Origin: Betaproteobacteria bacterium
Lineage (GTDB): Bacteria; Pseudomonadota; Gammaproteobacteria; Burkholderiales; Burkholderiaceae
NCBI GenBank assembly: GCA_947378095.1
Contig: CANCIL010000006.1
Location: 1 to 41,048 of the forward strand
DNA: 41,048 nt
Direction of reading: 5' to 3'
Below the pieces are notes generated by a model. The model made no database searches and was not told the origin of the DNA. It worked only from the letters and a program-made list of their open reading frames with translations. Positions 13,916 through 38,238 of this stretch are shown here, in pieces. The first letter of the stretch is position 1. Every line of letters begins with the position of its first letter. A program made the translations under genes and the position numbers.

Positions 13916-14323
13916 TTAGAGCACTTCTACCGTTTGATTTTTAGTATCAATTCGTAATTTAGCGCCACTGGTAATTGCCTGGGTAATATCGCAGTCAAAA
14001 CCACTTAACATTGGAATACCTGCATGTGCAGCACCTTGTGCCAGGATGGGATTAACAGCGTTGAAAATAATCGCTGCAGGGCAAAGATTTCGCGATTTCA
14101 TTTCATATAACATCCAGGCACTTGCTACCCCACCCTTTGCCGCATCTAAAACTAGAATCTTGTCTTGATAGGATTGGCCAAACAGTTTATGGGCTGGTCT
14201 AGAAAAAACACCCTTAAGACGATCCAAATCGTAGCGAGCTGAAAATCCATCAGCAGCACTTAAACATACGCCCTCGATGTTTTCACCTTGCGCATGTTTT
14301 GCTTTAAATATTTTTCCGCTCAA
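13916..14323 (-). CDS. aconitase X swivel-domain (small) subunit, DUF126
   Basis: Small subunit of a two-component aconitase X dehydratase. Family features are the N-terminal GKIFKAKHAQGENIEGVCL, the LDAAKGGVASAWMLYEM glycine-rich region and IPMLSGFD near the C-terminus. The length of 135 suits a stand-alone swivel domain. The start is TTG, overlapping the large-subunit stop (TTGA) and preceded by GGGGAGA about six bases away; no in-frame ATG occurs near the N-terminus. It closes the bug-acnX operon. The substrate is not known from sequence. Confidence 0.88.
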   Translation of the reverse strand: MSGKIFKAKHAQGENIEGVCLSAADGFSARYDLDRLKGVFSRPAHKLFGQSYQDKILVLDAAKGGVASAWMLYEMKSRNLCPAAIIFNAVNPILAQGAAHAGIPMLSGFDCDITQAITSGAKLRIDTKNQTVEVL

Positions 14324-15552
14324 TTTAATCTCCCCGTTACTGCTGCATTAACGCAATCTTCCATAGAGGCCAACATAGGCGTGTAGCCATAGCCACCCAA
14401 AATATTCACGATCTTTGCGCTATTAGTTGCTAATACTTTCCAACCATTGGCCTCGGCAATTTCTCTAGCGTAAGATTGATAAAAACACATCCCAGAAAAT
14501 ACTGTCCCGCCTGCATCCTCAATCTTTGCGGTATATCCCATTCGATCTGAGTCAGGCTTAACTTGCGGGCTTGTCATAGCCAATAAGGGCTTAATAAATT
14601 TTTTGCCATCACATAACTCTGCAATACTTTTCATTTCCATCAAACTGAGTTGAGGAGCAGAAAAAACAATGACATCGACTTCTTCAGCAATGCGATAGGA
14701 GTTTTGTAAACCCATTACTTCTTCTTTAGTTATTTGGATTTCAGGAAGATGTAAGTATTCCAAATCTCGGGCGTGCAGTGCCTCAGGCGTAATTCCTAAT
14801 ATATGAAATAACGCAGAAGAACCAAAGCTTGCCATTGCAGCGCCAAAGTGTTTCATAGCATCAGAGCCTGGATGGCCCTCAATTCCTTCTAGAACCGGAA
14901 CTGCCCAATAGTTACCAGATTTTTTTCCGATCAAACCACCTAAAGCACCCCATTCATTCAGAGTCTGGGGAGTCCAAGTGGTTCTGAAGCGATGTGTGGG
15001 CTTGCGATGTTCATCCAAGTGATACCCATATCTCGGCGTCCGACCAGTAAGGCCAGCTGCTAAAGCCGAGGGCCCGCCCTCAAAATTAGATCTTGCGCCA
15101 CAAATACTATTTGAGTAAATGACAACACCAGTATCGCCAAACGCTAAATGCTCGCCAAAGATAGGCGCCATAATGGTTTGGTAATTGATACAAGTATCGG
15201 TCATTGATACCCCCATCTTTACAAACGCATCTATGGCACGTCTTTCAAGCTCTAGCATTTTTTCAGTCTGACCAAGCTGATTGGCTTTTGTAAAGTCGGT
15301 ACCCCTTGGATCGGTAATGGTCGGTATGCGTACAAGGCGATCTTGCAATGCATTTTTAGCCAAGCCTTCGAGCCACTCAACCCCCGACTCACCTAAACTC
15401 TCAGTATCCGCCATGATATGGGCCTGAGACACTGGCACTAAATCATGGGCACCAAAAAATTCGCCGACTTTAATTTGATGCTCAATTGCATTTTTTCTGA
15501 CTGGACCAAACTCTCCAGCGAGCATTGCTTTTTCTTCTTCGTTTAGCTTCAT
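14320..15552 (-). CDS. aconitase X catalytic (large) subunit, DUF521
   Basis: Iron-sulfur dehydratase of the aconitase X family. Characterised members include cis-3-hydroxy-L-proline dehydratases in bacteria and phosphomevalonate dehydratase in archaea. Characteristic stretches are DTCINYQ (C121), SNSICGARSNFEGG (C151), GTVFSGMCFYQ (C356) and KVLATNSAKIVNILGG. The three cysteines are placed to act as cluster ligands (inference). It has 410 residues, the usual size for the separate large subunit. It overlaps the small subunit by four bases and follows a Bug binding protein. No hydroxyproline or proline-reductase genes lie nearby, so a different hydroxy acid may be the substrate. Confidence 0.9.
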   Translation of the reverse strand: MKLNEEEKAMLAGEFGPVRKNAIEHQIKVGEFFGAHDLVPVSQAHIMADTESLGESGVEWLEGLAKNALQDRLVRIPTITDPRGTDFTKANQLGQTEKMLELERRAIDAFVKMGVSMTDTCINYQTIMAPIFGEHLAFGDTGVVIYSNSICGARSNFEGGPSALAAGLTGRTPRYGYHLDEHRKPTHRFRTTWTPQTLNEWGALGGLIGKKSGNYWAVPVLEGIEGHPGSDAMKHFGAAMASFGSSALFHILGITPEALHARDLEYLHLPEIQITKEEVMGLQNSYRIAEEVDVIVFSAPQLSLMEMKSIAELCDGKKFIKPLLAMTSPQVKPDSDRMGYTAKIEDAGGTVFSGMCFYQSYAREIAEANGWKVLATNSAKIVNILGGYGYTPMLASMEDCVNAAVTGRLN

Positions 15553-15571: not shown

Positions 15572-16555
15572 TTAATCTATTGTTGCGCCGGAATCTCGAA
15601 CCACTCTTGCCCATTTAGCTATCTCGCTAGTCTGGAAATTAGCTAGGCTTTCTTTAAAATCCGTATTTGGTTGAACACCTAAGTTCCCAAGTCGCTCTTT
15701 AAAAGCTGCAGACTGGGCCACACCCTCCGTATTGGATCTCAACTTTTTAGTAATCGACTCAGGTAATTTGGCTGGAGCAAATACAGCCCACCAAGCAGTA
15801 GATTCAAATTGTGGATAACCTGATTCAGCAACTGTAGGTACGTTAGGCAGTAAAGGAGACCGTGTCTTACTGGTTACGGCCAAGGGGCGTAATTTGCCAG
15901 AAGTAATATGAGGCAAGACTGACTGAATTGGATCAAAAACGAGGGGTATTTGCCCACCGATTAAATCAGTCACAGCAGGAGCACTTCCTTTGTAAGGAAT
16001 GTGCTTGAATTTAACTTGGGCTACTGACTCAAATAAAGCTGCAGTTAAATGTCCTGGGGTACCGTTACCTGCAGTGCCATAAGCAATCGTATCCGGCTTA
16101 GCACGGGCATCTGCAATTAATTCAGAAAGTGTCTTAATACGGTCATTTGAATTCACTGCAATTACGACTGGAGCCGATGCGACGAGGGCAATGGGTGTGA
16201 AATCTCTAGTCATATCGTATGGCAGTTGCTTATATAAACTTCCATTAATGGCATTAGTACCCACCGTTCCCATCAACAAGGTATAACCATCTGGAGCCGC
16301 TTTGGCAACGAGATCAGCGCCAATCGATCCTCCTGCTCCGCCTTTATTTTCAATCACGATCTGTTCTTTAAGACGCTCCTCCAAAAGAACAGATAAAGGC
16401 CTAGCAACAATGTCTGTTGGACCACCAGGAGGAAATGGAACAATTAATCGGATGGGCTTATTGGGATAATTTTGAGAAGCGGCATTAGAAGATATGAGGA
16501 AGGCGCCCATCAACAATAGAAAGTATTTGCAGTGCTTAGCATTCAAAAGATTCAT
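15572..16555 (-). CDS. Bug-family (TctC-like) periplasmic substrate-binding protein
   Basis: Secreted solute-binding protein of the tripartite tricarboxylate transporter family. A signal peptide (about 1-27, cleavage near ASQ) is followed by YPNKPIRLIVPFPPGGPTDIVAR, the Bug ligand-binding start. Further on are GTAGNGTPGHL and HIPYKGSAPAVTDLIGGQI, typical of the family. It has 327 residues. An AGGTGA precedes the ATG. It is first in an operon with aconitase X and divergent from lysR, so it may bind the AcnX substrate. No TctA or TctB is in the window. Confidence 0.9.
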   Translation of the reverse strand: MNLLNAKHCKYFLLLMGAFLISSNAASQNYPNKPIRLIVPFPPGGPTDIVARPLSVLLEERLKEQIVIENKGGAGGSIGADLVAKAAPDGYTLLMGTVGTNAINGSLYKQLPYDMTRDFTPIALVASAPVVIAVNSNDRIKTLSELIADARAKPDTIAYGTAGNGTPGHLTAALFESVAQVKFKHIPYKGSAPAVTDLIGGQIPLVFDPIQSVLPHITSGKLRPLAVTSKTRSPLLPNVPTVAESGYPQFESTAWWAVFAPAKLPESITKKLRSNTEGVAQSAAFKERLGNLGVQPNTDFKESLANFQTSEIAKWARVVRDSGATID

Positions 16556-17773: not shown

Positions 17774-18475
17774 ATGAATCATGACGATGCATTATTAGAT
17801 TATCTAGCTCAATTCGACACGCCTACAATCTGTAATGCATTGGAATTAATTGATCCCTCTTATAGAACAAATGGATTTACTACTGAACCATTGCAATGCA
17901 TCTATCCAGAACTACCTTCAATCGTAGGCTACGCAAAAACTGGTACTGTTAGCGCGATTGCACCATCTAAAAAAAGTGCTGCTGAACAATTAGAAAATCG
18001 CATCAATTGGTATAAGTATGTCGATCAAAATCCTAAACCGAGCATTGTTGTATTACAGGATATTGATGGGGAAAGGGCTGGTTTTGGAGCCTTCTGGGGT
18101 GAAGTGAACTCCCATGTGCACCGTGGTTTAGGGGCAAAAGGCGTTATCACCAATGGCTCCATTAGAGATATCCAAATGAATGCCGCTGGTTTTCAAATGC
18201 TTGCGGGCAGCGTAATGCCAAGTCATGCTCATGTGCACATAGTCGATATTGCTTGTAACGTCACTGTTGCTGGCCTCAGCATTCAATCAGGCGATTTAAT
18301 TCATGCAGATCGTCATGGAGCTGTCATGATTCCCCATGATGCGGCAATGAAAATTAAAGAAAAAATTGAGTTGATCGCCAGAAAAGAAGAGGTGATCATC
18401 GGCGCAGCTAAAAAACCAGGGTTTAATTGGGAAATACTTAGCGAGTCAATCAAAAAAACATTAGACATCCATTAA
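17774..18475 (+). CDS. RraA-family protein, probable aldolase/decarboxylase-type enzyme
   Basis: Belongs to the RraA / 4-hydroxy-4-methyl-2-oxoglutarate aldolase fold. Seen are GAKGVITNGSIRD at 120-132 with R131 and D132 matching the substrate and metal residues of characterised aldolases, and LIHADRHGAVMIP at 175-187. The usual Asp in the VxDGxxRD motif is Asn here (ITNGSIRD). It has 233 residues, longer than the roughly 160 of RNase E inhibitor RraA, which argues for a metabolic role. It is followed by a Bug protein, 22 bases away. It may cleave a 4-hydroxy-2-oxo acid or decarboxylate oxaloacetate-like products; substrate unknown. Confidence 0.82.
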   Translation: MNHDDALLDYLAQFDTPTICNALELIDPSYRTNGFTTEPLQCIYPELPSIVGYAKTGTVSAIAPSKKSAAEQLENRINWYKYVDQNPKPSIVVLQDIDGERAGFGAFWGEVNSHVHRGLGAKGVITNGSIRDIQMNAAGFQMLAGSVMPSHAHVHIVDIACNVTVAGLSIQSGDLIHADRHGAVMIPHDAAMKIKEKIELIARKEEVIIGAAKKPGFNWEILSESIKKTLDIH

Positions 18476-18497
18476 TTTCACTTAAGGACGAGTGCAA

Positions 18498-19466
18498 ATG
18501 AAAAAAATATTTTTTCTTCCATTCATTGTTTTATTTTCACTCTCCAATGTCTTCGCCCAAACTTCAGATTGGCCCAATAAAACCGTCAAAATAGTGGTGC
18601 CGTTTACTCCTGGTGGGGCGCTAGACCTTACAGCTAGAGAGCTTGCAAAGCGTTTATCAGTCAAATATAACCAAAGTTTTATAGTTGAAAATTTGCCTGG
18701 AGCGGGGGGCACGTTAGGCGTAAATTCTGTTGTTAAATCAAAACCTGACGGCTATACCTTACTGGTGGCATCAACTGGCCAACTCTCCTTACAGCCTGCA
18801 ATTTATAAAAATCTTCCCTATGACCCTGCAGTAGATTTAAAACCAATTAGTCAATTGACTTCGGCTTCTTTTATATTGGTGGTCAGCAGCGACTTTCCAG
18901 GAAAAACAGCAAAGGATTTAGCGACTGAGCTCAAAGCCAATCCAAAAAAATATAATTACAGCTCTACAGGAAACGGCACCTTAGTCCATCTGACGGGAGA
19001 AATGTTTAGTCAAGCCTCAGGAGCCAATGCAACCCACATTAGCTATAAAGGTGGCCCAGACTCTGTTTTGGCTGTTGCTTCAAAAGATGCTTTATATACG
19101 ATTACTAATATCTCAAATGCAATGCCATTATTAAGCAGTGGAAAACTAAAGGCATTAGCAACTTCTGGAAGCAAAAGACCAAGTGGCTTAGCTGATATTC
19201 CCACTATTGCGGAAAACGGATTTCCAAATTTTGACTCTACAGTTTGGGTTGGTTTGTTTGGCCCAAAAAATATTCCAAATAATATTGTGGCATCGCTTAA
19301 TGAAGCAACGCGCCAAGCATTAGCCGACCCAACATTTATTAGCAAAATGACTGCAAATGGTGATGATCCATCGCCAAAGAGCCCAGAGGAATTTTCTCAA
19401 TTCATCGCAAAAGAGACCACTAAGTGGGGCACAATCGCTCGTAGTGCCAATGTACAGATGGAGTAA
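18498..19466 (+). CDS. Bug-family (TctC-like) periplasmic substrate-binding protein
   Basis: Second of three Bug proteins. A signal peptide (about 1-20, cleavage after VFA) leads to WPNKTVKIVVPFTPGGALDLTAR, with family elements SSTGNGTLVHL and HISYKGGPDSVLAV later. The track starts at GTG 18492, but the ATG at 18498 lies nine bases after AAGGA and is preferred, giving 322 residues. It lies between the RraA-like gene and the aldolase. Its ligand is probably an acid consumed by the neighbouring enzymes (inference). Confidence 0.9.
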   Translation: MKKIFFLPFIVLFSLSNVFAQTSDWPNKTVKIVVPFTPGGALDLTARELAKRLSVKYNQSFIVENLPGAGGTLGVNSVVKSKPDGYTLLVASTGQLSLQPAIYKNLPYDPAVDLKPISQLTSASFILVVSSDFPGKTAKDLATELKANPKKYNYSSTGNGTLVHLTGEMFSQASGANATHISYKGGPDSVLAVASKDALYTITNISNAMPLLSSGKLKALATSGSKRPSGLADIPTIAENGFPNFDSTVWVGLFGPKNIPNNIVASLNEATRQALADPTFISKMTANGDDPSPKSPEEFSQFIAKETTKWGTIARSANVQME

Positions 19467-19548
19467 TCTTGGTAGTAAGCTTAGCGCTCTAAATCAAATA
19501 GCAGCATCAGTAATTCATCTTTTCTATTAATAACTTATCGGGGACGTC

Positions 19549-20316
19549 ATGCATTCAATTGCCACATCACTTAAATCGAAATTACAGCAAGGAAAAATGA
19601 TTGGTGGTGCCTGGATGATGACAGTGAATCCAGCCTATGCAGAACTTGCGTCAGCTATTGGATTAGATTTTGTGGTGATTGATATGGAGCATGGCGCAAT
19701 TGCCTTGGCTGATTTACCAGGAATACTACGTGGCTTTAGTCGCGAAACAAGCGCAATTGTTCGCGTACCGTCTGCTGATCCTAGCTTGATTGCGCGAGTA
19801 TTAGATCGTGGTGCACATGGTGTCATGGTACCCAGAGTAGAGAGCGTTGAAACCGCTTTAGAAGTTTCGCGCGCTGCCAAATTTCCTCCTCAAGGAGATC
19901 GCGGCTTAGCGCTTCCCGCCCTCAGAGCTTCCGGCTATGGCACTAACCCTGACTATCGACCTAATTCGAACGCAAATACTTTAATGATTATCCAATTGGA
20001 ATCAGCTAATGCAATGAATTTAGCGCTTGAAATTGGTGGCTTGCCAGAGGTGGATTTAGTGTTTGTGGGGCCAACAGACTTATCGGCCAATTTGGGTCTA
20101 GAAGGACCAGAAAACTTCGCTGCTTTAAATCAAATAATTGATGGCGTTTTAGCAAAATGTAAAACTGCCAAGATCCCATTGGGCATCATTCCATTTGCGG
20201 GGAGAGCAGTACCCGATCTGAAGCAACTCGGTTTTCAGATGGTTGTTGCGGGCAGTGATGTGGCCTTCTTAAGAGAATCTATTATTAATTTAAAGAAAAC
20301 TTTTGAATCAAACTAG
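19549..20316 (+). CDS. HpcH/HpaI-family class II aldolase
   Basis: Metal-dependent pyruvate aldolase that reversibly splits 4-hydroxy-2-oxo acids, for example 2-keto-3-deoxy sugar acids, to pyruvate and an aldehyde. Catalytic and binding residues are visible: E47-H48 in DMEHGA, R72 in VRVPSAD, metal ligand E151 in QLESANA and D177 in GPTDLSANLG. It has 255 residues, standard for the family. GGGGA precedes the ATG. Placed before a Bug protein and an IlvD/Edd dehydratase, it fits the step after sugar-acid dehydration. Substrate chain length cannot be decided. Confidence 0.9.
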   Translation: MHSIATSLKSKLQQGKMIGGAWMMTVNPAYAELASAIGLDFVVIDMEHGAIALADLPGILRGFSRETSAIVRVPSADPSLIARVLDRGAHGVMVPRVESVETALEVSRAAKFPPQGDRGLALPALRASGYGTNPDYRPNSNANTLMIIQLESANAMNLALEIGGLPEVDLVFVGPTDLSANLGLEGPENFAALNQIIDGVLAKCKTAKIPLGIIPFAGRAVPDLKQLGFQMVVAGSDVAFLRESIINLKKTFESN

Positions 20317-20386
20317 GCCTTAGTTGCCTAAGAAGACATCGGCGCTGCAAATGCGCACTAAGTGATTCCTAAAAACAGGAGGGGCA

Positions 20387-21364
20387 ATGTTCAAACAATG
20401 GAAATGCTTGTTCATATTAGCTACTGCTTTATTCACTCATGCAATACCTAGTTATGCGCAATCTGGCTACCCAAATAAACCTATTAAACTTTTTGTAGGC
20501 TTTCCTCCTGGTGGAGGCGTTGACTTTACTGCACGGCTTTTAGCCCCTCACCTTGCAGAAGCACTTGGTCAACAAGTCGTTATCGAAAACAAACCCGGCG
20601 CTGCGGGTGTGATCGCACTAAATGAGTTAACTCGCGCTGCACCCGACGGCTATACCTTAGCCGTAGCTAATATTGGCCCTATGGTTTTAGCTCCTAACAT
20701 GATGGCAAAAAAACCATATGACCCTTTGAGAGATTTCACACCTATTGGTCAAATTGTTTCTACTTATTTTCTGGCAGTGGTTCCACGAGATCTCCCAGTA
20801 GATTCGCTGAAGTCTTTTATTCAATGGGCTAAGAAGAATCCCGATAAAGCCAATTTTGCTTCTGGTGGTAATGGATCCATTACTCATTTAAATGGTGAGC
20901 TACTAAATACTATTAGCGGTACTAAGCTCACCCACATTCCTTATAAAGGCTCCGCACCAGCGATTGTTGATTTAGTTTCTGGGCAAACGCATATTCTGAT
21001 TGATATCACCAATATCTTAGTTCCCCAGGTTCAATCAGGTGCTTTAAAAGCGATTGCCATTACTAGCCCTAATAGGGATAAAGATTTGCCAAATGTGCCG
21101 ACTATGCGGGAATCTGGTTTCGCCGAATTGGAAACCTCGGGATGGCAAGGTTTAGTTGGCCCAGCTGGCATGCCTAAGGATGTGGTTCAAAAATTACAGA
21201 GTGCCCTCAAGAAAGTTCTAAGCAATCCAGATGTTCGCGAGCGCTTAGAAAAATCTGGGACTCCAATTACAGAACGATCTTCTGCAGAATTTACAAACTT
21301 TATTAAATCAGAAAATGATCGCTGGGCATCAGTTATCAAGGCATCTGGCGCCTCAATGGATTAA
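20387..21364 (+). CDS. Bug-family (TctC-like) periplasmic substrate-binding protein
   Basis: Third Bug protein. A signal peptide (about 1-24, cleavage after SYA) is followed by YPNKPIKLFVGFPPGGGVDFTAR and later FASGGNGSITHLNGE and HIPYKGSAPAIVDLVSGQ. It has 325 residues. The start has a strong AGGAGG seven bases upstream, better than most genes in the window. Between the aldolase and the dehydratase genes it likely binds a sugar acid; transporter membrane subunits must be elsewhere, if they exist. Confidence 0.9.
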   Translation: MFKQWKCLFILATALFTHAIPSYAQSGYPNKPIKLFVGFPPGGGVDFTARLLAPHLAEALGQQVVIENKPGAAGVIALNELTRAAPDGYTLAVANIGPMVLAPNMMAKKPYDPLRDFTPIGQIVSTYFLAVVPRDLPVDSLKSFIQWAKKNPDKANFASGGNGSITHLNGELLNTISGTKLTHIPYKGSAPAIVDLVSGQTHILIDITNILVPQVQSGALKAIAITSPNRDKDLPNVPTMRESGFAELETSGWQGLVGPAGMPKDVVQKLQSALKKVLSNPDVRERLEKSGTPITERSSAEFTNFIKSENDRWASVIKASGASMD

Positions 21365-21431
21365 ATTTTGAATCTCCTCTTTCATGTAGCACAATACCTT
21401 AAACAACTAACCAATTAACCATCAACATTCA

Positions 21432-23201
21432 ATGACAACTACCAAGCGCAAAAAACCTGAAGAACTTCGAAGTCATCGTTGGTATGGCGCAAAAGATATG
21501 CGCAGCTTTGGACATCGTTCCCGTACAGCTCAGATGGGCTATAACCGTAATGACTATGCAGGCAAACCGGTTATTGCCATCATCAATACTTGGAGCGACA
21601 TTAATCCCTGTCATAGTCATTTTCGTCAGCGCGCTGAAGAAGTAAAAAGAGGCATTTGGCAGGCGGGTGGATTTCCAGTGGAAATGCCAGCAATCAGCTT
21701 ATCCGAGCCTTTTCAAAAACCGACCACGATGTTGTATCGCAATCTACTAGCAATGGAGACCGAAGAATTATTGCGCTCCTACCCTGCTGATGCGTGCGTA
21801 TTAATGGGTGGCTGTGACAAGACTACACCGGCTCTATTGATGGGCGCCATCAGCATGAATTTACCCACCATCTTCTTACCTGCAGGCCCAATGTTACGTG
21901 GTGATTATCGGGGGCAGTTTTTAGGTAGCGGAAGCGACGTCTGGAAATATTGGGCTGAGTTACGTGCAGGCAATATCACTGAATCTGATTGGGCAGAGAT
22001 TGAAAATGGTATTGCGCGCTCCCCAGGTCACTGCATGACTATGGGCACAGCCTCAACGATGACGAGCACGGTAGAGGCTCTGGGCTTATCTTTATCTGGA
22101 TATGCTTCCATACCTGCGCCAGACTCTAGACATGCACAAATGGCTACTCAGACCGGGCGCCGCATTGTTGAAATGGCATGGGAGGATCTCAAACCCTCCG
22201 ATATTTTGACTCCCGCCTCCTTTGATAATGCCGTGATGACTACTCTGGCTTTATCTGGATCTACTAATGCTGCCGTGCATTTGATCGCTCTATCTAAACG
22301 CGCTGGCTTTAATCTCACATTAGAGCGCTTTGATGAATTGGCCCGCAAAATACCTGTCCTCGCCAACGTCAGACCATCTGGCAAGTACCTAATGGAAGAT
22401 TTTTTCTATGCAGGCGGTTTGCGCGCTCTATTGAAGCAACTGGGAAGCCTACTCAGCCTCAAAGAAAAAACTGTTGATGGAAAAACCATTGGTGAACTGA
22501 TTGCTAATGCCACAGTATTTAATGACGATGTGATTCGCTCAATAGACAATGCCATGGTGAAGAGTGATGGGTTGGCCATCCTCAAAGGCAATCTTGCTCC
22601 AGATGGCGCAGTCATTAAGCCACCAGCTGCTGAAAGTCATCTTCTCAAGCACACAGGCAAGGCAGTCGTCTTTAAAAACTATGATGACCTATCCGCTCGT
22701 ATCGACTCACCTACATTGGATATTGATGCGAATTCTGTCATCGTTCTTCAAAACGCCGGTCCCCAGGGCGCCCCTGGCATGCCCGAGTGGGGGCAATTAC
22801 CAATTCCTAAAAAGCTGTTAGAGCAAGGTGTACGCGATATGGTGCGAATTTCTGATGCCCGTATGAGCGGTACCAGTTATGGCGCATGTGTTTTACACGT
22901 CACACCAGAATCCTATATCGGCGGTCCATTGGCTTTTGTGAAGGATGGCGATCTGATTGAGCTTGATGTACCTGCTCGTAAATTAAATGTCTTAATTTCT
23001 GATGAGGAAATGGCTAAACGTAAGGCGGCCTGGGTTGCCCCAATACCAAAATTTGAGCGCGGCTTTGGTAAGCTTTATTTACAGCATATACAACAAGCTG
23101 ATAAAGGTTGTGACTTTGACTTTTTAGAAACACAAGTCAGCCCCACTCATTCGGACACTCAAAAAGACGGTAGTAGAGGCGGTGAACCAGAGATTCATTA
23201 A
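21432..23201 (+). CDS. IlvD/Edd-family sugar-acid dehydratase (L-arabinonate dehydratase-like)
   Basis: Iron-sulfur dehydratase that turns an aldonate into a 2-keto-3-deoxy acid. Cluster cysteines C60 ([13 protein letters not shown]), C128 ([10 protein letters not shown]) and C201 ([12 protein letters not shown]) align in spacing with the three ligands of characterised L-arabinonate dehydratase. At 589 residues it matches the pentonate/hexonate dehydratase branch rather than IlvD of valine synthesis, with which it shares the fold. Its product would be a substrate for the HpcH/HpaI aldolase two genes upstream. Substrate stereochemistry is not readable. The C-terminal tail ([13 protein letters not shown]) is hydrophilic and unlikely to be catalytic. 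Confidence 0.88.
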
Positions 23202-23274
23202 ATCTTCCAAAGAAGACCGCTGAGATATAAAATGATTATTGCTACCTCTAACCTATAACAACTTAAAGCTCACC

Positions 23275-24750
23275 ATGACAACTGATATTCGCAAGCTCTT
23301 GAAAGATCCTAGCCTATTTAAAGAAGAGGCTTTTATTAATGGTAAATGGGTGAAGTCTAGCTCGGGCAAAACCTTCCCAATCAATAACCCAGCCACAGAT
23401 GAAATCATCGCGCAGGTTACTAACTTAGATGCAGCAGATGCAGAAAAAGCAATTGCTGCTGCCAATGAAGCTTTTCCTAAATGGAAAGGTATTACCGGCA
23501 AAGAGCGCGCAGGCTTAATGCGTAAATGGTTTGATCTGATCCTACAAAACAAAGATGACTTAGCCATTTTGATGACCCTGGAGCAAGGCAAACCCCTTAC
23601 CGAATCCGCAGGTGAAGTAGTTTATGGTGCATCTTTTATTGAATGGTATGCAGAAGAAGCGAAACGGGTTTCTGGAACTATTCCAACAACCATCTGGGGT
23701 GATAAACGCTTCATGGTGCTCAAGCAACCAGTGGGCGTTTGCGTGGCGATTACACCCTGGAACTTCCCCAATGCGATGATTACCCGCAAGATTGCACCTG
23801 CAATGGCAGCAGGTTGCACCATCATCATTAAGCCCGCAGAACAAACACCTTTGTCCGCTTTGGCGCTGGCTGAACTGGCAATCCGCGCTGGCATTCCAGA
23901 AGGCGTGATGAATATCGTGACTGCTGATGCAGATCAATCCATCGCAATTGGAAAAACACTTTGTGCTTCACCTATAGTTCGCCACCTCTCCTTCACAGGA
24001 TCCACTGAAGTAGGTCGCATCTTGATGTCGCAGTGTGCACCCACCGTGAAGAAGCTAGGACTTGAGCTAGGTGGCCACGCTCCTTTCATTGTGTTTGAAG
24101 ATGCCGATATTGATTCGGCAGTAGCGGGAGCGATTGCTTCTAAATACCGTAACTCTGGACAAACTTGTGTTTGTGCCAATCGCATCTACGTTCACAAAAA
24201 AGTGCACGATGCCTTTGTGGAAAAATTCTCTCAGGCTGTACAAGCGATCAAAGTTGGTAACGGTATGGATGCTGGCGTCTCTCAAGGCCCATTGATTGAT
24301 CATGCTGCCCTAGAGAAAGTAGAAAGACATATTGCTGATGCTCTAAGTAAAGGCGCCAAGCTAGTGACAGGCGGCAAGCCTTCACCATTAGGCGGCACTT
24401 TCTATGAGCCAACTATTTTGGCAAATGTCACCAGCAATATGTTGATTACTTATGAAGAAACATTTGGCCCAGTGGCACCAATCATTCCTTTTGAAAGTGA
24501 TGATGAAGTGGTTGCGCTAGCCAATAACAGCCAGTATGGCCTTGCATCCTACTTCTACAGCCGAGATATCGGTCGTATTTGGAAAGTCGCAGAAGCCCTT
24601 GAGTACGGCATGGTTGGTGTCAATAGCGGGATCCTTGCTAATGAAGTTGTTCCATTTGGAGGAGTAAAGCAATCGGGCCTAGGAAGAGAAGGTAGCGTCT
24701 TTGGTATGGATGAGTACTTAGAGTTGAAGTACGTTTGTATTACGCTCTAA
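23275..24750 (+). CDS. gabD: NAD(P)-dependent aldehyde dehydrogenase, succinate-semialdehyde dehydrogenase type
   Basis: Closely resembles GabD in its motifs. Seen are PWNFPNAMITRK (N163), KPAEQTP (K186), FTGSTEVG, ELGGHAPFIVF (E264) and GQTCVCAN with catalytic C298 and the neighbouring C300 typical of succinate-semialdehyde dehydrogenases. The track ORF starts at TTG 23239; the ATG at 23275 matches family N-termini and gives 491 residues. As the last gene of the island it could oxidise the aldehyde from the aldolase (glycolaldehyde, lactaldehyde or a semialdehyde). It could also be an ordinary GabD. The gene name reflects sequence class, not proven substrate. Confidence 0.88.
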   Translation: MTTDIRKLLKDPSLFKEEAFINGKWVKSSSGKTFPINNPATDEIIAQVTNLDAADAEKAIAAANEAFPKWKGITGKERAGLMRKWFDLILQNKDDLAILMTLEQGKPLTESAGEVVYGASFIEWYAEEAKRVSGTIPTTIWGDKRFMVLKQPVGVCVAITPWNFPNAMITRKIAPAMAAGCTIIIKPAEQTPLSALALAELAIRAGIPEGVMNIVTADADQSIAIGKTLCASPIVRHLSFTGSTEVGRILMSQCAPTVKKLGLELGGHAPFIVFEDADIDSAVAGAIASKYRNSGQTCVCANRIYVHKKVHDAFVEKFSQAVQAIKVGNGMDAGVSQGPLIDHAALEKVERHIADALSKGAKLVTGGKPSPLGGTFYEPTILANVTSNMLITYEETFGPVAPIIPFESDDEVVALANNSQYGLASYFYSRDIGRIWKVAEALEYGMVGVNSGILANEVVPFGGVKQSGLGREGSVFGMDEYLELKYVCITL

Positions 24751-30723: not shown

Positions 30724-31287
30724 TTAAAACTTGGGGGCTAGGTCCCAAGCTAAGCCATTCTGGTCCTTGGCATTCATATTAGGAGCAATTCCTGCCGGCA
30801 AAGGCCACTGCACGCCAACGCTAGGATCATTCCAAACTAAACAGGCTTCACTTTGAGGGTGATAGTAATCGGTCGTTTTATATAAAAATTCTGCGGCCTC
30901 TGATAAGACTAAAAAGCCATGGGCTAAACCTGCAGGAATCCACATTTGCTTGTGATTCTGCGCACTGAGCTCGGCCCCCACCCATTTGCCATACGTAGGA
31001 GACGATTTCCGAATATCTACTGCGACATCAAAGACACTGCCAGCGACCACGCGCACCAGCTTGCCTTGGGCATGCTCTAACTGATAATGCAAGCCACGCA
31101 AAGTCCATTGCTTAGAAAAAGAATGGTTATCTTGCACAAACTCTACCGAGAGTCCAGTAGCCTGTGCAAAATCTTGCGCATTAAAAGACTCAGTGAACCA
31201 ACCGCGCTCGTCACCAAATACCTTAGGCTCGATGATCAACACATCATGTATTGCAGTTGGGGTAACTTGGAGCTTCGAGTTAGACAA
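30724..31287 (-). CDS. rfbC: dTDP-4-dehydrorhamnose 3,5-epimerase
   Basis: Third enzyme of dTDP-L-rhamnose synthesis. The cupin fold motifs GDERGWFTESFN, QDNHSFSKQWTLRGLHYQ with the catalytic histidine, and MWIPAGLAHGFLVLSE are all present. It has 187 residues. The start is TTG with AAGGAAA eight bases upstream; the next methionine would remove the conserved N-terminus. It lies 12 bases after rfbA in the rfbB-rfbD-rfbA-rfbC order. Confidence 0.96.
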   Translation of the reverse strand: MSNSKLQVTPTAIHDVLIIEPKVFGDERGWFTESFNAQDFAQATGLSVEFVQDNHSFSKQWTLRGLHYQLEHAQGKLVRVVAGSVFDVAVDIRKSSPTYGKWVGAELSAQNHKQMWIPAGLAHGFLVLSEAAEFLYKTTDYYHPQSEACLVWNDPSVGVQWPLPAGIAPNMNAKDQNGLAWDLAPKF

Positions 31288-31299
31288 GCGTTGTTTCCT

Positions 31300-32220
31300 T
31301 TATTTCTTTGGGGACAAAGAGATAGGCTGAGATGAGGTATTGAGCTCATGCAAAATTTTATTCAGGTACTGTCCGTAACTATTTTTGCTGAGCTGTGATG
31401 CTACTTTTTTCACTGCTTCAGCACTGATCCAGCCTTGGCGATAGGCTATCTCTTCAGGACATGCAACCATGAGACCCTGACGCTTTTGTAAGGTAGCAAT
31501 AAATCCGGCAGCATCTAATAAAGAGTCATGGGTGCCAGTATCAAGCCAGGCAAAACCACGCCCCATGATTTCGACATTAAGTTCATTTTTATCTAAGTAG
31601 AAGCGATTCACATCCGTAATCTCTAACTCACCACGAGCACTTGGCTTAATGGAGGCAGCGACATCGCACACTTGATTGTCGTAAAAATATAAACCGGTGA
31701 CAGCGTAATTGCTTCTAGGTTTAGTTGGCTTTTCTTCAATCGAGAGTGCTTTGTAATGCTGATCAAACTCAACCACTCCATAGCGCTCTGGATCAGTCAC
31801 ATGATATGCAAAGACAGTGGCACCACTCGTTCTTTGATTTGCACTATCTAACTGACCAACCAACTCATGACCATAAAATATGTTATCGCCAAGTACCAGA
31901 GCACTTGGATCATTGCCCACAAAGTTTTTGCCTAGCGTAAATGCTTGCGCCAAACCATCTGGGGAAGGCTGAACACAGTACTGAATATTGAGACCCCACT
32001 GCGATCCATCTCCTAAGAGTTCAGAAAATCGAGGGGTGTCATGTGGGGTAGAGATTAATAAAATATCTCTAATGCCTGCCAACATTAAAGTCGTCAGGGG
32101 GTAGTAGACCATCGGCTTGTCATACACAGGCATCAACTGCTTGGAAACAGCTTGAGTCACTGGATACAAACGCGTACCAGATCCACCCGCCAAAATGATG
32201 CCCTTACGATTGATTGCCAT
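31300..32220 (-). CDS. rfbA: glucose-1-phosphate thymidylyltransferase
   Basis: First enzyme of dTDP-L-rhamnose synthesis, making dTDP-glucose. The nucleotide-binding start [31 protein letters not shown] in outline (residues about 8-38), the metal-binding [11 protein letters not shown] and [20 protein letters not shown] are all standard. It has 306 residues, slightly longer than the usual 290 owing to a serine-rich C-terminal tail. It sits between rfbD and rfbC with gaps of about 12 bases. Confidence 0.97.
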
Positions 32221-32233
32221 TTTTTATCTACTC

Positions 32234-33187
32234 TTATATCTGGCCATCTTTAGCCAATTGCTGCACATAGGCCTGCACATCTTCAGACCAAGGTTTATTC
32301 CAACGCTGCAATTTTGACACATCCCCAGCGGCTGCAATCGCCAGCTTGAGCTTATCCGTCGCCATACGAGAATTCATGGGTCTAGGGGCTGGTAATGGGT
32401 ACTCCACGGCCATAATAGGCTTAATCGCGTCCTGGGACAGCTTTAATGAGGCTCCAGCAGCTTTTGCAGACTCAATTGCCAAACATGCCAAGGCATACCA
32501 ATTGGTCTCACCAGGCGGCACTGCATGATAGATGCCTGAGTCAAAAGCCTGAAGTTGGCCATTGGAATTAAGAACCAAATCAAGACTGACTGCAGCCAGC
32601 CAACTTGAAGAAGTAGGAACACCCAGTTGATCTTGAATTACTTTGAGCTCTTCACGATCTTTCGCTAAGCGCAAAATCGTTTTAATAAAATTACCGCCAG
32701 CACCATATACCCAGCTAGTACGCAAAATTGCATAGTGGCCACGAGCAGAATTAGAGAATGCCTGCTCAATCGCAAGCTCTCCGGCAGCCTTGCTTTTACC
32801 GTAGGCGCCCAATGGATTGCGTACATCATCCTCTTGGTAATACCCTGCCTTACCCCCATCAAAAACGTAGTCAGTGGAGTAATGCAAGAAAGTAGCGCCC
32901 TGTTCAGCGGCATATAAGGCCATCACTTCAGGCGCTTTTGCATTGATGGCAAAAGCGAGATCATTTTCGCTTTCAGCTTTATCAACTGCCGTATAAGCAG
33001 CAGCATTAATAATGAGATCTGGCTTTGCATCAATCAGACATTGCTTGACTGCATCTGCCTGTGACAGATCACAATCACTCCGCCCCACATACTGGACTTG
33101 CATATTGCTAAGCTGAGTTGCACTTTCGAATAAAGAGCGAAATGCTTTGCCTAACTGACCGTCTTTACCAAAGATGAGGATATTCAT
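32234..33187 (-). CDS. rfbD: dTDP-4-dehydrorhamnose reductase
   Basis: Last step of dTDP-L-rhamnose formation. The N-terminal ILIFGKDGQLGKAF NADPH site, LIINAAAYTAVDKAE, the STDYVFDG motif and the catalytic YGKSKAAGE tetrad are visible. The length of 317 is a little above the family average of about 295-300. It lies 25 bases after rfbB and 13 before rfbA, part of one operon. Confidence 0.96.
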   Translation of the reverse strand: MNILIFGKDGQLGKAFRSLFESATQLSNMQVQYVGRSDCDLSQADAVKQCLIDAKPDLIINAAAYTAVDKAESENDLAFAINAKAPEVMALYAAEQGATFLHYSTDYVFDGGKAGYYQEDDVRNPLGAYGKSKAAGELAIEQAFSNSARGHYAILRTSWVYGAGGNFIKTILRLAKDREELKVIQDQLGVPTSSSWLAAVSLDLVLNSNGQLQAFDSGIYHAVPPGETNWYALACLAIESAKAAGASLKLSQDAIKPIMAVEYPLPAPRPMNSRMATDKLKLAIAAAGDVSKLQRWNKPWSEDVQAYVQQLAKDGQI

Positions 33188-33212
33188 TCGTGAGGATTAC
33201 GGTTTTGGGATT

Positions 33213-34271
33213 TCAGTTGTACTGCTTTTGTAACCAGTCACGGTAAGAGCCGCTAACAACGCCCTCAATCCAGGCCGGATTATCCAAATACCACTGAATC
33301 GTCTTACGAATACCAGTATCGAAGGTTTCGGCAGGACGCCAAGCTAAATCACGCTCAACTTTGCTGGCGTCAATCGCATAACGGCGATCATGGCCAGGGC
33401 GATCCTTAACGAAGGTAATTTGTTCTGCATAAGACTTGCCATCAGATCGAGGTTTTAGTTCATCCAAAATTTGGCAGATCGTTTTGACTACATCAATATT
33501 GGCCTTCTCATTCCAGCCGCCAATGTTGTATGTCTCTCCTAATTTCCCTTTAGATAAAACTTCCCGAATCGCTGAACAATGATCGCCGACATAGAGCCAG
33601 TCCCGAATCTGCTGTCCATCACCATAGATAGGTAATGGCTTGCTATTGAGCGCATTGAGAATGACCAATGGAATGAGCTTCTCAGGGAAGTGGTAGGGGC
33701 CATAGTTGTTTGAGCAATTGGTTGTCACTACCGGAAAGCCGTAGGTATGAAACCAAGCGCGCACTAGATGATCTGACGCTGCCTTGGATGCAGAGTATGG
33801 GCTATTGGGTTCGTACGAATTAGTTTCAGTAAACGCAGGGTCAGTCATGGAGAGCGATCCATATACCTCGTCGGTTGAAACATGGTGAAAGCGAAACTGC
33901 TCTTTTGCGCTAGCATCAAGTCCATTCCAATACTCACGCGCACACTCTAACAAATTGAAGGTGCCCACGATATTGGTTTGGATAAATTCTGCAGGACCAT
34001 GAATCGAGCGATCGACATGACTCTCTGCTGCAAAGTTCACAATGGCACGCGGCTTATGCTCTTTTAATAATTTAGTGATGAGCTCTTTATCACCAATATC
34101 GCCATGAACAAATACATGACGAGCATCGTTTTTCAAAGCATCTAAGGTAGCCAGATTGCCGGCATACGTCAGCTTATCCACATTCACAATACCTTCCGCA
34201 CTTGGATTGGCAAGCCAATCCAGTACAAAATTACCCCCAATAAATCCTGCGCCGCCAGTAACTAAAATCAT
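33213..34271 (-). CDS. rfbB: dTDP-glucose 4,6-dehydratase
   Basis: Second enzyme of dTDP-L-rhamnose synthesis, producing dTDP-4-keto-6-deoxyglucose. Motifs are [27 protein letters not shown] with the catalytic Asp-Glu pair, [14 protein letters not shown] and [17 protein letters not shown]. The length of 352 is normal. The start overlaps the stop of the GT10 gene (ATGA), so the glycosyltransferase and rhamnose genes are translationally coupled. Confidence 0.97.
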
Positions 34272-35344
34272 GATTGAAGTGGTCCTAAAATGGCTTCAGC
34301 AAAAGCTTCTGAGCTATATGGTCTGAATGCCGGTGAAGCCAGAAACTGTCTACCTGCCTCTTGATAAGCAATGTAGTCCTGCTCACTCATTTTACTGAGA
34401 TATTGGTAAAGTTCTTGATAAGGATTAGAACTATTTGCAAACTGGCGAAAATCAATAAAGCAAGCAGTAGGAACTAAGCTCTCAATCTGCGGCTCCCCCC
34501 AATAAACAGGTACACAGCCGGCAAATAAGGAATCAAATAGTTTCTCAGTGAGATATCCAGGAATATCTTTGGCGTTCTCGTAACAAATACAAAAACGGGC
34601 CTTTGCCAATACCTCGAATTTACTTTTAGCTGAGCCCTGATAGCTTGGAAAGACTGCCTTACCCATCAGAAAAGGTAAAACCTTTTCTAAACGATAGCGC
34701 CACTTGCCTGACTTACCTTGACGTTTTTGCGGAACCAACCAACCGTTGCCAAACAAAGCAAAGTCTTTTAGCGCATTCTCCTCAAACCATCGAATGGCTT
34801 TCACTCTTTCAGAATAGAGCTCTCTCGTATCAGGTAAGTTTGCATGGCGGTTACTACCAATCAGAACGCAGAAGAGATTGCGCTTGGCAAAGCCTAGATT
34901 GACTATCTGATTAGTTTTAAATGCTGCAGGCAGAACATTCGGATAAGCGATCCGAAACTTGGGAGTAGAAGCTGTCTTTTGACTTAGAGCGCTTCCTGAA
35001 TCTGCGTTTAGCAAAACCTGATCCCAGGTAAAAACGCCATCGAATTGATTTAAGTACTCAGCATCACCATTAATGGGAACTGTTAATTCTGTTTCAAAAC
35101 GAATCAGATAATTCTTGCAATTTTCAATTGGAATGAGAGGTATGGATTCGAGATAGAGTGTGAACTGAGGCGTAATTCCAGCCTTCTGCAGAACATCTAA
35201 GGTATGGAGCTCAATACCCCGTTCCGCTGCTTTGACCCTTAGAGCCCTGAAGGGCTCCAAGCAATCATCGCGATTGCGAGGGCTTTGAGAATTAAATAGA
35301 TCATCTTGACCCTCCTCCCATCCGACAATCCCTCCAACTACCAT
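34268..35344 (-). CDS. GT10-family fucosyltransferase-like protein
   Basis: The segment at 251-283 ([19 protein letters not shown], then AGCVPVYWG) is the donor-binding motif of alpha-1,3/1,4-fucosyltransferases. The N-terminal half (about 1-150) is divergent and probably binds the acceptor; a basic stretch (about 207-222) follows. It has 358 residues and no membrane helix, so it likely acts in the cytoplasm on lipid-linked sugars. It is first in the rfbBDAC operon and divergent from a GT11 gene. GDP-fucose synthesis genes are not seen in the window. Whether fucose or another deoxysugar is transferred is inferred only from the family. Confidence 0.83.
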
Positions 35345-35440
35345 AGCAGGCCGCTCACTTAAGGTTCAGTTCTGATCAAGCACCAACAAGAATCCATGCT
35401 GATGTGATTTGCTTATTGTTAATGGTCTAATTATAGGGTT
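35345..35440. promoter_or_regulatory. divergent interval between the two fucosyltransferase-like genes
   Basis: This 96-base interval must hold promoters for both directions. On plus, TTGCTT (35409-35414) and TATAGG (35432-35437) are 17 bases apart, a reasonable sigma-70 pair. It would start transcription at or inside the GT11 ATG at 35441, and no ribosome binding site precedes that ATG at normal distance. A leaderless mRNA is therefore possible. The match is weak and not tested. Confidence 0.35.
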
Positions 35441-36331
35441 ATGGCCATATATTCCTACCTCCAGGGCGGCCTAGGTAATCAAATGTTTCAGTATGCGATT
35501 GCTAGAGCCCTATCCGAGCATTATCAAAGCACTTTTTTGCTTGATCGCTCCTGGTTTGATGTACCCCAATCAGAAACTACACCGCGACCTTATCAACTTG
35601 ATCTTCTGCAGATTCAGAATACGGCGAAGAGTAATCTGGATTTTCCTAAAAAACCCCATCGCTGGATAAGGGCCTTACAGAGGCTCTTATCCTCAGGTCC
35701 GATTGTGTATTACCAGCAAAATGCTTTTGAGTTTGATCCATTACTGTTTCAATTCAAGAGTATGGCCAAACGCGATCTCTTTCTCTTTGGTTACTGGCAG
35801 GCTTACCCCTACCTCGAAAATATTCGACCGATCTTGCAGTCTGAGTTCAAAACTAAAGCGCCAATACCCGATCACTATCAAATCTATCTTGAGCACATTC
35901 GCACTAATGAATCCGTGATGCTGCATATTCGCCGAGGGGACTATGTGAACTCGCCATCCGCAGCGAAGTTTCATGGTGTACTTCCGCTAAGCTATTACCA
36001 GCAGGCGATCCAAGCCTTGCTTCTCAATAAGCCAAATGCACATTTCTTTATTTTTTCTGATGACTTACCTTGGGCTAAAGAATCGCTTCCTAAAGATCTG
36101 AAGGTCACTTTTGTAGAAAATGCTTTGCAGGCAGATGCTGCAGCACAAGAATTACAACTCATGACGGCATGTAAGCATCACATCATTGCTAATAGTTCAT
36201 TGAGTTGGTGGGGTGCCTGGCTCAAACAAGATTGCAATGGTCTGGTCTTTGCACCCAATCGATGGATCAGCGATAGTAGCTTAGATCTTTCTCATCTTTT
36301 GCCGACTAGCTGGAACAGGATTCCTGCTTAA
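35441..36331 (+). CDS. GT11-family alpha-1,2-fucosyltransferase-like protein
   Basis: Characteristic motifs are GGLGNQMFQY at 9-18, MLHIRRGDYVNS (the GDP-fucose-binding HxRRxD motif) near residue 162, and NSSLSWWGAWL near residue 250. The length of 296 is typical of bacterial alpha-1,2-fucosyltransferases. The start cannot move downstream without losing the first motif. It stands alone on the plus strand, six bases from the convergent GT2 gene. It probably caps or branches the surface glycan with fucose; acceptor unknown. Confidence 0.9.
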   Translation: MAIYSYLQGGLGNQMFQYAIARALSEHYQSTFLLDRSWFDVPQSETTPRPYQLDLLQIQNTAKSNLDFPKKPHRWIRALQRLLSSGPIVYYQQNAFEFDPLLFQFKSMAKRDLFLFGYWQAYPYLENIRPILQSEFKTKAPIPDHYQIYLEHIRTNESVMLHIRRGDYVNSPSAAKFHGVLPLSYYQQAIQALLLNKPNAHFFIFSDDLPWAKESLPKDLKVTFVENALQADAAAQELQLMTACKHHIIANSSLSWWGAWLKQDCNGLVFAPNRWISDSSLDLSHLLPTSWNRIPA

Positions 36332-36337
36332 GTAGTC

Positions 36338-37327
36338 TTAATGAGCGGCCTTACCGAGGCACCCGAGGATGCTGCCATAGAGTGCAATACAGACGCGCTC
36401 TAAGCGAGTCAACGGAGTCCATAAACCATTACCCCGAAATTGGAAACGTGCATAGAGTTCCATATTCGCGCCCAGAGATATATGGGGAATACGTTCATTG
36501 ATCAACTTAATAAACTGAACGCCATACTTTAGTCGCTCATAAAACGGCAAAGGTCTTGGTAAACAAGACTCAGGAATGCCGAGCATTTTTAAGTAACTTG
36601 CTTGTGCATTTGAAAACACATTACGCGCTGCTTGAAGATGGTTCACACTCGTCTGAGTGGAATGCAGGCGGTAGGTAATGAGTTTCTTTTTAATATTCGC
36701 AAAACGGTAGCCAGCTAAAGCAATCTCAGTCCATAGGCAATAGTCTTCAGCATGCATATAAGACGCTTTGTAAGGGAATTGCTTAAAGATTTCTAGCTTA
36801 CCCATCATGGCAGGGTTACATACCGGACTACACACACTCAATAGCGCCTGAATATCGGAATTCGAATGGCGCTGCTTTGAACTTTTACGCTCACCAGTTA
36901 CTTGATTCAAAGTGAAATGGTCGGCGCCACATAAGTCAGCATGATTGTTTTCTAAAAACTCTACTTGGAGCGCCAGTCTCTCTGGAAATGCTCGGTCATC
37001 CGCATCCAGCAGTGCAAGGTATTTCCCTTTGGCCATACCGGCAATGAGATTGCGGGTAGTGATCAAACCACGATTCTGATCTGAATACACTTTAATAATG
37101 CGCTTATCCGTAAATTGATCAATGATCTCTCGCGTACGATCACTGGAACCGTCGTCAACAATGATCAACTCAAAGTTGGTATAGGTTTGCGCCAAAATAC
37201 TTTCAATGGCTTCAGCAATATATCTCTCAGAATTAAATACTGGCATCGATACACTAACCAAAGGCAATGCTTTTATTTCCTTGGAATCGGATGCTTGCAA
37301 GTGAGCAGTATTAGCAAGGTCATTCAT
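36338..37327 (-). CDS. family 2 glycosyltransferase
   Basis: GT-A fold enzyme. LVSVSMPVFNSERYIAEAI opens the domain near residue 23, VDDGSSDRT at 58-65 binds the nucleotide sugar, and LLDADDRAFPERLA near 106 carries the DxD metal motif. It has 329 residues with a C-terminal extension (about 240-329) that has no clear membrane segment. It lies five bases after the DUF6492-like gene, which follows galE, so the three form an operon. Sugar specificity is not readable. Confidence 0.9.
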   Translation of the reverse strand: MNDLANTAHLQASDSKEIKALPLVSVSMPVFNSERYIAEAIESILAQTYTNFELIIVDDGSSDRTREIIDQFTDKRIIKVYSDQNRGLITTRNLIAGMAKGKYLALLDADDRAFPERLALQVEFLENNHADLCGADHFTLNQVTGERKSSKQRHSNSDIQALLSVCSPVCNPAMMGKLEIFKQFPYKASYMHAEDYCLWTEIALAGYRFANIKKKLITYRLHSTQTSVNHLQAARNVFSNAQASYLKMLGIPESCLPRPLPFYERLKYGVQFIKLINERIPHISLGANMELYARFQFRGNGLWTPLTRLERVCIALYGSILGCLGKAAH

Positions 37328-37332
37328 AATGA

Positions 37333-38238
37333 TTAGAGATAACTTTGTAATAAACGTAAGAAGCGTTTACTTCTTTTTAATAATCTAGAAGGCAGGGATT
37401 TACTCGGAGCCCCATAATCCAACTCGGATTCCCAGGCAGACTGATAAATCACGCCGATAAAGTTTTGCGCCAACCTCTCTTGGGTCTCGCCTAAACGACG
37501 GGAGAGGTAATAGTGCCAGTCATAGTGATAAATCCGAAACAAAGGTTCAATCATGCGCACGGGAATCGCCTGATACTTTAATAAGGTTTCACCATATATC
37601 AAGGTTTCTGGGTGCTCGGGAGTAATGAGGTCCCAAAGTGTTATCCCTTTAGGCTGGAGATACTGTTGATCTAAAGATTCCCACACCTTAGCCGACCAAA
37701 TAAATGGGGCAGGTGCACAGTAGTAATTTGGTCCGACCCTGCCAAACAAGGCCTTCACTGTTTCGGCTTCTTTGCGTAGCTCTCTCTCGACCCGAAGATG
37801 CCCACGATTGGTCGCCATCTGAAAGAGCTCTTTATTTTGATGAAGCACGGTGTATGGAAAACCATCTGAAGCTAGAAAATCTGCTTTTCCAAAGTCGCGA
37901 ATAAAAATGCTATCGGAATCAATGCATAAATAATTATTCGCCAAACCTAATCGCCAAAATTCAGACTTAATCACCTGTTGAGCAATACCACCTGATCTAG
38001 TTTTCTGTATATCTTTTGGAGCACGAGGATTAGATTGAATAATTTCCTCATCAGCAATCCATTGATATCCCTGATTTTCTCCAACTAGCGCAAACAAGGC
38101 ATCTCGATCAGCTTGCGGAGTGGAGATATAAACGGGAATCGATTCAATATTGTGCTTGTGTATCGATTCAAGCAAGCGCTTTACACGCAATAAATCTCGA
38201 CGATAGGATTTGCAATATAGAACGAAATCGAATGGCAT
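37333..38238 (-). CDS. DUF6492-like putative glycosyltransferase
   Basis: A 301-residue protein with FVLYCKSYRRDLLRVKRLLESI at the start and YLCIDSDSIFIRDF around residue 103-116. The DSD resembles the DxD metal motif of GT-A enzymes, and the QQVIKSEFWRLGL element before it matches the family. The C-terminus is strongly basic (SRLLKRSKRFLRLLQ), suggesting membrane association. Its ATG directly follows the galE stop (TAA then ATG). A role in assembling the surface polysaccharide fits the context; family activity is not known to me. Confidence 0.65.
   Translation of the reverse strand: MPFDFVLYCKSYRRDLLRVKRLLESIHKHNIESIPVYISTPQADRDALFALVGENQGYQWIADEEIIQSNPRAPKDIQKTRSGGIAQQVIKSEFWRLGLANNYLCIDSDSIFIRDFGKADFLASDGFPYTVLHQNKELFQMATNRGHLRVERELRKEAETVKALFGRVGPNYYCAPAPFIWSAKVWESLDQQYLQPKGITLWDLITPEHPETLIYGETLLKYQAIPVRMIEPLFRIYHYDWHYYLSRRLGETQERLAQNFIGVIYQSAWESELDYGAPSKSLPSRLLKRSKRFLRLLQSYL

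Follow-up and report, generated by a model that had tools for sequence, protein, structure and literature searches.

The DNA analysed here (the window, 41,048 nucleotides) carries at 13916-15552 two genes that a sequence-only reading had assigned to a two-subunit aconitase X (AcnX). Only two reactions are known in the AcnX family: the dehydration of cis-3-hydroxyproline, by types I and IIa, and that of phosphomevalonate, by the archaeal type IIb (PMC8184944, PMC10040528). The bacterial types IIc–IIf, listed as unsolved since 2021, have no known function. The question for the locus is whether its AcnX pair catalyses one of the known reactions or acts on another substrate.

The AcnX gene pair and its relatives

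The genes in and around the pair are arranged as follows.

13916..14323, minus strand: AcnX small subunit (swivel domain), 135 aa, TTG start; Pfam PF01989 and residue tables
14320..15552, minus strand: AcnX large subunit, 410 aa; Pfam PF04412, fold match, 86-ortholog alignment
15572..16555, minus strand: Bug/TctC periplasmic carboxylate receptor, upstream gene in the same operon as AcnX; Pfam TctC, 226.8 bits
16652..17602, plus strand: LysR regulator, divergent from the Bug-AcnX operon; Pfam
17774..18475, plus strand: RraA-like aldolase/decarboxylase; Pfam RraA-like, 58.3 bits
18492..24750, plus strand: neighbouring catabolic genes (Bug, HpcH, Bug, IlvD, SSADH-type), including the next three
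19549-20316, plus strand: HpcH aldolase
21432-23201, plus strand: L-arabinonate dehydratase-type IlvD; NF009559, 985 bits (cut-off 882)
23239-24750, plus strand: SSADH-type aldehyde dehydrogenase; TIGR01780, 711 (cut-off 646)

The subunit ORFs lie in tandem on the minus strand and overlap by 4 nt; the small subunit starts with TTG in the window, as compared with ATG in the L003 ortholog. In Pfam, the small subunit matched AcnX_swivel_put (86.6 bits, cut-off 27) and the large subunit matched AcnX (382 bits, cut-off 31.5), both over their full length. AcnX homologs are common in bacteria, and chance cannot account for the family match. Among solved proteins, TkAcnX (E 5e-57) and AtAcnX (E 1e-32) are the closest. 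The large subunit, modelled with AlphaFold (pLDDT 90, 31 sequences), matched two AcnX crystal structures: 7CNR with a TM score of 0.88 at 32% identity, and 7CNP with a TM score of 0.90. ORFs, family matches and fold all agree with the assignment to aconitase X, and the separate subunit genes in tandem, an arrangement kept in relatives, place the pair in type II.

The source of the pair is a freshwater Polynucleobacter, and its closest named relatives (91-92%) are Polynucleobacter strains. In a maximum likelihood tree of 45 rows, the window's AcnX and its orthologs formed a 100/100 clade, joined at 100/100 by a 44% relative, while type I AcnX formed a separate 100/100 clade; deeper branching was weak, with long branches. 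The window protein therefore falls outside the cis-3-hydroxyproline clade. Of 350 Burkholderiaceae genomes, 21 carried an ortholog, and a wide gap in score set these orthologs apart from other AcnX; orthologs also occur in Alphaproteobacteria, and within Polynucleobacter the distribution is patchy. The open-access literature on DUF521/DUF126 and AcnX yielded no characterised member of the clade.

No part of the window matched Rfam. Elsewhere in it, the stretch at 30724-39249 carries dTDP-rhamnose-type (rmlABCD-like) genes together with glycosyltransferase genes and appears to be a locus for a surface polysaccharide.

Active-site residues of the clade

Residue positions were mapped through the numbering of the TkAcnX large subunit, and every expected residue was recovered. 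The AtAcnX chain numbering is offset, and equivalences to it rest on the Tk column and on those stated in PMC8184944. Cys121, Asp140, Thr141, Gly142, Cys356 and Lys380 are invariant in 86/86 ortholog large subunits, as are Asp49 and Asp81 in the same alignment; Arg30, Tyr31, Asp32 and Gly65 are invariant in 85/85 ortholog small subunits. Cys121, Cys356 and Lys380 correspond to Tk Cys110, Cys342 and Lys361, while Asp140 and Thr141 stand in place of Tk Glu129 and Ser130, a Glu and following Ser kept in all 34 other AcnX large-subunit rows.

The sequence-only reading had proposed that three cysteines (C121, C151 and C356) hold an iron–sulfur cluster. Its numbering was correct and C121 and C356 proved to be invariant, but C151 varies and is not a cluster ligand: its position is C in 62 of the 86 orthologs, G in 11, N in nine and S in four, and Phe or Leu in six sister-clade loci (40-44% identity) whose other site residues are unchanged. 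In the AlphaFold model, C151 comes after helix 141-149, whose start adjoins Asp140. At the sites that provide the third ligand in the characterised enzymes, the window has Ala299 (Tk Cys283; Ala or Gly across the 86 orthologs) and Tyr358 (At Cys510).

The substrate side of the site is also altered. The catalytic (general-base) serine, found in 38/38 other AcnX small-subunit rows, is replaced by Gly65 (in a KGG motif) in the clade and its sister. The SFWGG of other AcnX gives way in both to FS(A/P)RYDLDR (FSARYDLDR in the window), in which Arg30 stands where AtAcnX has Trp35 and TkAcnX has Leu27. Relative to AtAcnX, Ser70 has become Gly65, Thr72 Ala67, Asp203 Met47 and Tyr534 Ile384. Published structures show At Trp35 and Tk Leu27 in contact with the distal end of the substrate, while the C2 proton is abstracted by Ser70, a residue essential in AtAcnX; At Asp203 binds the substrate amine, and Tk Val49 lies in the phosphate loop (PMC8184944). 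The remodelled pattern was repeated in the six further sister-clade loci.

The uniformity of these residues across deep divergence reflects selection on function. We conclude that the window's AcnX is a genuine and conserved variant, as yet uncharacterised, whose catalytic site is altered; its clade is now defined by two cysteines, the replacement of Glu by Asp, an Arg at the specificity position and the lack of a serine base. Gly65, Arg30, Met47 and Asp49 suggest a substrate without a ring amine or phosphate, and a residue other than serine as base. To judge from the residues, the substrate may also carry a second anion facing Arg30. Because a serine that is essential in AtAcnX is absent, the chemistry may differ from dehydration, and a serine-free active site would bear on the evolution of aconitase-type chemistry.

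Partner genes and candidate substrates

Gene calling and clustering around 88 AcnX loci revealed a minimal cassette of a LysR or GntR regulator, Bug, AcnXL and AcnXS, recurring in this order in many genera; a Bug homolog lies directly upstream of AcnX in most ortholog loci. Other Polynucleobacter retain the LysR gene alongside the cassette (L017, 91%; L029, 74%; L022, 66%). The sugar-acid neighbours in the window had been thought to bear on the substrate, but they are for the most part local to it. Homologs of IlvD and HpcH were beside AcnX in 0/85 related loci, so the adjacent sugar-acid operon (17774-24750) was rejected as the AcnX pathway and is probably a separate one. The RraA-like gene, in contrast, recurs: it is found with AcnX in three arrangements, and orthologs (65-67%) flank AcnX in the sister-clade genome G747 and in L036, where the gene comes right behind that of the small subunit. 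The RraA-like protein is thus a possible AcnX partner.

Further neighbours were noted at a few loci. Sulfatase-like genes lie beside AcnX in Advenella (L068:5273-9704) and in the sister-clade genome G964 (L169:10329-11804). In Paroceanicella (L127:1987-6688), an IlvD-type dehydratase and an FAD oxidoreductase appear to share an operon with a different AcnX subclass.

A two-subunit ThDP decarboxylase, absent from the window, was found within about 10 kb of AcnX at nine loci in about eight genera. It is usually accompanied by a GMC oxidoreductase, an MFS carrier and an IclR regulator, and forms one operon with Bug-AcnX in L060. Its beta subunit was detected at full score in 6/350 genomes, all six with an AcnX ortholog (Fisher 2e-8, uncorrected for kinship), and plasmid records likewise show the enzyme together with AcnX. 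The nearest solved chain is the beta subunit of phosphonopyruvate decarboxylase; the enzyme is a distant relative of the sulfopyruvate/phosphonopyruvate decarboxylases (ComDE type), far under the curated cut-offs of both families.

Starting from the observed fold, subunit pairing, residue pattern, conservation and partner genes, the pair is probably an active heterodimeric hydro-lyase with the AcnX fold, of a type II subclass, acting on a hydroxy-acid that lacks nitrogen and bears a second charged group. The Bug receptor would capture such an acid, non-phosphorylated and with its second anionic or polar group at the far end, for import by a tripartite permease encoded elsewhere; two TctA permease genes are present elsewhere in the window's genome. 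AcnX would then remove water, or another leaving group, from C3, with an Fe–S cluster on Cys121 and Cys356 as Lewis acid (Asp140 perhaps serving as third ligand). Lys380 and the main chain would bind the carboxylate, and in place of the missing serine another base, for which Asp49 is a candidate, would accept the C2 proton. Whether unsaturated or 2-oxo, the product could enter central metabolism directly or via the RraA-type aldolase/decarboxylase, the ThDP decarboxylase, the GMC oxidoreductase or glycolate oxidase. A counterpoint to the hydro-lyase reading is that the cluster site has two invariant cysteines.

That the pair is instead a catalytically dead or non-enzymatic relic is highly unlikely. 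Loss of the general-base serine would fit decay, as would broken copies in G687 and in Polaromonas P1-6, where the small subunit is split over two frames (L011:13068-13632), but these copies are exceptions: the remodelled site is uniform in the 86 orthologs and the sister clade, and both subunits are always present. Such conservation agrees with the earlier view that the enzyme is probably active. Still less credible is a cis-3-hydroxyproline dehydratase. The fold is the same and the NCBIfam equivalog model for that enzyme does match the window protein, but at 179.3 bits against a cut-off of 700; the protein lies outside the type I clade, and Arg30, Gly65, Ala67, Met47 and Ile384 replace the substrate residues. 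The absence of proline-pathway partners, noted from the sequence alone, was borne out: there were no hydroxyproline genes near AcnX, and neither proline racemase (PF05544) nor the OCD/mu-crystallin-type reductase (PF02423) was found in the window's 77% complete genome. Of three Ldh_2 genes elsewhere in that genome, the one examined lies within a sulfolactate-type cluster. Membership of the cis-3-hydroxyproline clade with identical substrate residues and a reductase would have spoken for the known enzyme; clade and residues both differ, and with the partners missing as well, a new substrate, as first suggested, is likely.

Two candidate substrate classes remain, a hydroxy-acid yielding glyoxylate or pyruvate and an organosulfonate. 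It is possible, but we hold it tentatively, that a tartrate-, aldarate- or aldonate-like acid loses water on AcnX to form a 2-oxo-3-deoxy acid, from which RraA/HpcH aldolases, or the ThDP decarboxylase with the GMC oxidoreductase, would give pyruvate, glycolate and glyoxylate. GlcDEF genes flank AcnX in Alpha- and Betaproteobacteria (L013, L075, L083, L084, L090) and in the sister-clade locus L169, with malate synthase at three loci; together with the recurring RraA orthologs, the strict association of the ThDP decarboxylase with AcnX, and Arg30 and Asp49/81, which suit a polar or dianionic substrate, this is consistent with such a route. However, the window's arabinonate-type IlvD and HpcH are not kept with AcnX, and a complete route was not seen in one locus. 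Somewhat more doubtful is a substrate bearing a sulfonate, for example a sulfonated hydroxy-acid, with AcnX feeding sulfoacetaldehyde or sulfolactate routes. In Polynucleobacter the association is close: Xsc was present in 6/6 sampled genomes with intact AcnX as compared with two of at least 44 without. In many strains Bug-AcnX comes after Xsc, and SauS (741 bits, cut-off 600), Pta and a molybdo-oxidoreductase lie close to them; in several (L020, G002), Xsc-Bug-AcnXL-AcnXS is contiguous on the same strand. On contig C16 of the window's own genome, SauS and Xsc score above their cut-offs and are accompanied by Pta-, sulfite-dehydrogenase- and SuyAB/SlcC/ComC-like genes. In G687, AcnX, Xsc and SauS are fragmented together, TauE-ComC-SlcC-SuyB-like genes lie beside Bug-AcnX in a Lautropia MAG (L049), and SulP or TauE genes are near AcnX in several genera. 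Against this, Xsc occurred in only 13/25 non-Polynucleobacter AcnX genomes, near background, and neither Polynucleobacter 31A-FELB nor P. piptadeniae, both of which carry the decarboxylase cluster, has it; within Polynucleobacter a single inherited insertion may account for the linkage. A universal AcnX-Xsc link was rejected as not general among 34 AcnX genomes. For these reasons we treat the sulfonate link as a lead rather than a conclusion.

The C16 genes form an apparent sulfonate island (G000, L145:154-18570) of SauS, Bug, IclR, Pta, a molybdo-oxidoreductase with an Fe–S protein, and Xsc, continuing with GntR and SuyB-, SuyA-, ComC- and SlcC-like genes; the SuyAB/SlcC/ComC set has been described for sulfolactate (PMC12421959). 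At L154 (G687:C1:1492000-1511999), Xsc, Bug, both AcnX subunits and SauS/Pta are broken, as if the locus had decayed as a unit.

A third functional AcnX class, with no catalytic serine and a two-cysteine cluster site, acting on an organosulfonate or other dianionic hydroxy-acid, is conceivable, though we think it improbable as things stand; if real, it would open a carbon and sulfur source to freshwater and soil bacteria. The partner genes and candidate substrate classes make the function of the clade directly testable.

Relation to characterised AcnX enzymes

TkAcnX, a type IIb phosphomevalonate dehydratase (7CNR/7CNS; also ApPMDh), resembles the window's pair in its two subunits, its fold, its Cys110 and Cys342 ligands and Lys361. 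It differs at the third cluster cysteine and the active-site acid (Cys283 and Glu129; Ala299 and Asp140 in the window), at the residues that bind MVA5P (Asn79, Ser62 of the small subunit and Val49 of the phosphate loop; Asp81, Gly65 and Asp49) and at Tyr365 (Ile384). Phosphomevalonate dehydratase identity was rejected on the cluster cysteine and the MVA5P-binding residues. AtAcnX has the fold and the equivalents of Cys273, Cys508 and Lys530 in common with the window, but is a single fused chain, and the equivalents of its Cys510, Ser70, Trp35, Asp203 and Tyr534 are all altered. Types IIc–IIf, in contrast, are like the window's clade bacterial, two-subunit and without the landmark residues of both known enzymes (Watanabe 2021, PMC8184944), and the clade is most likely one of them.
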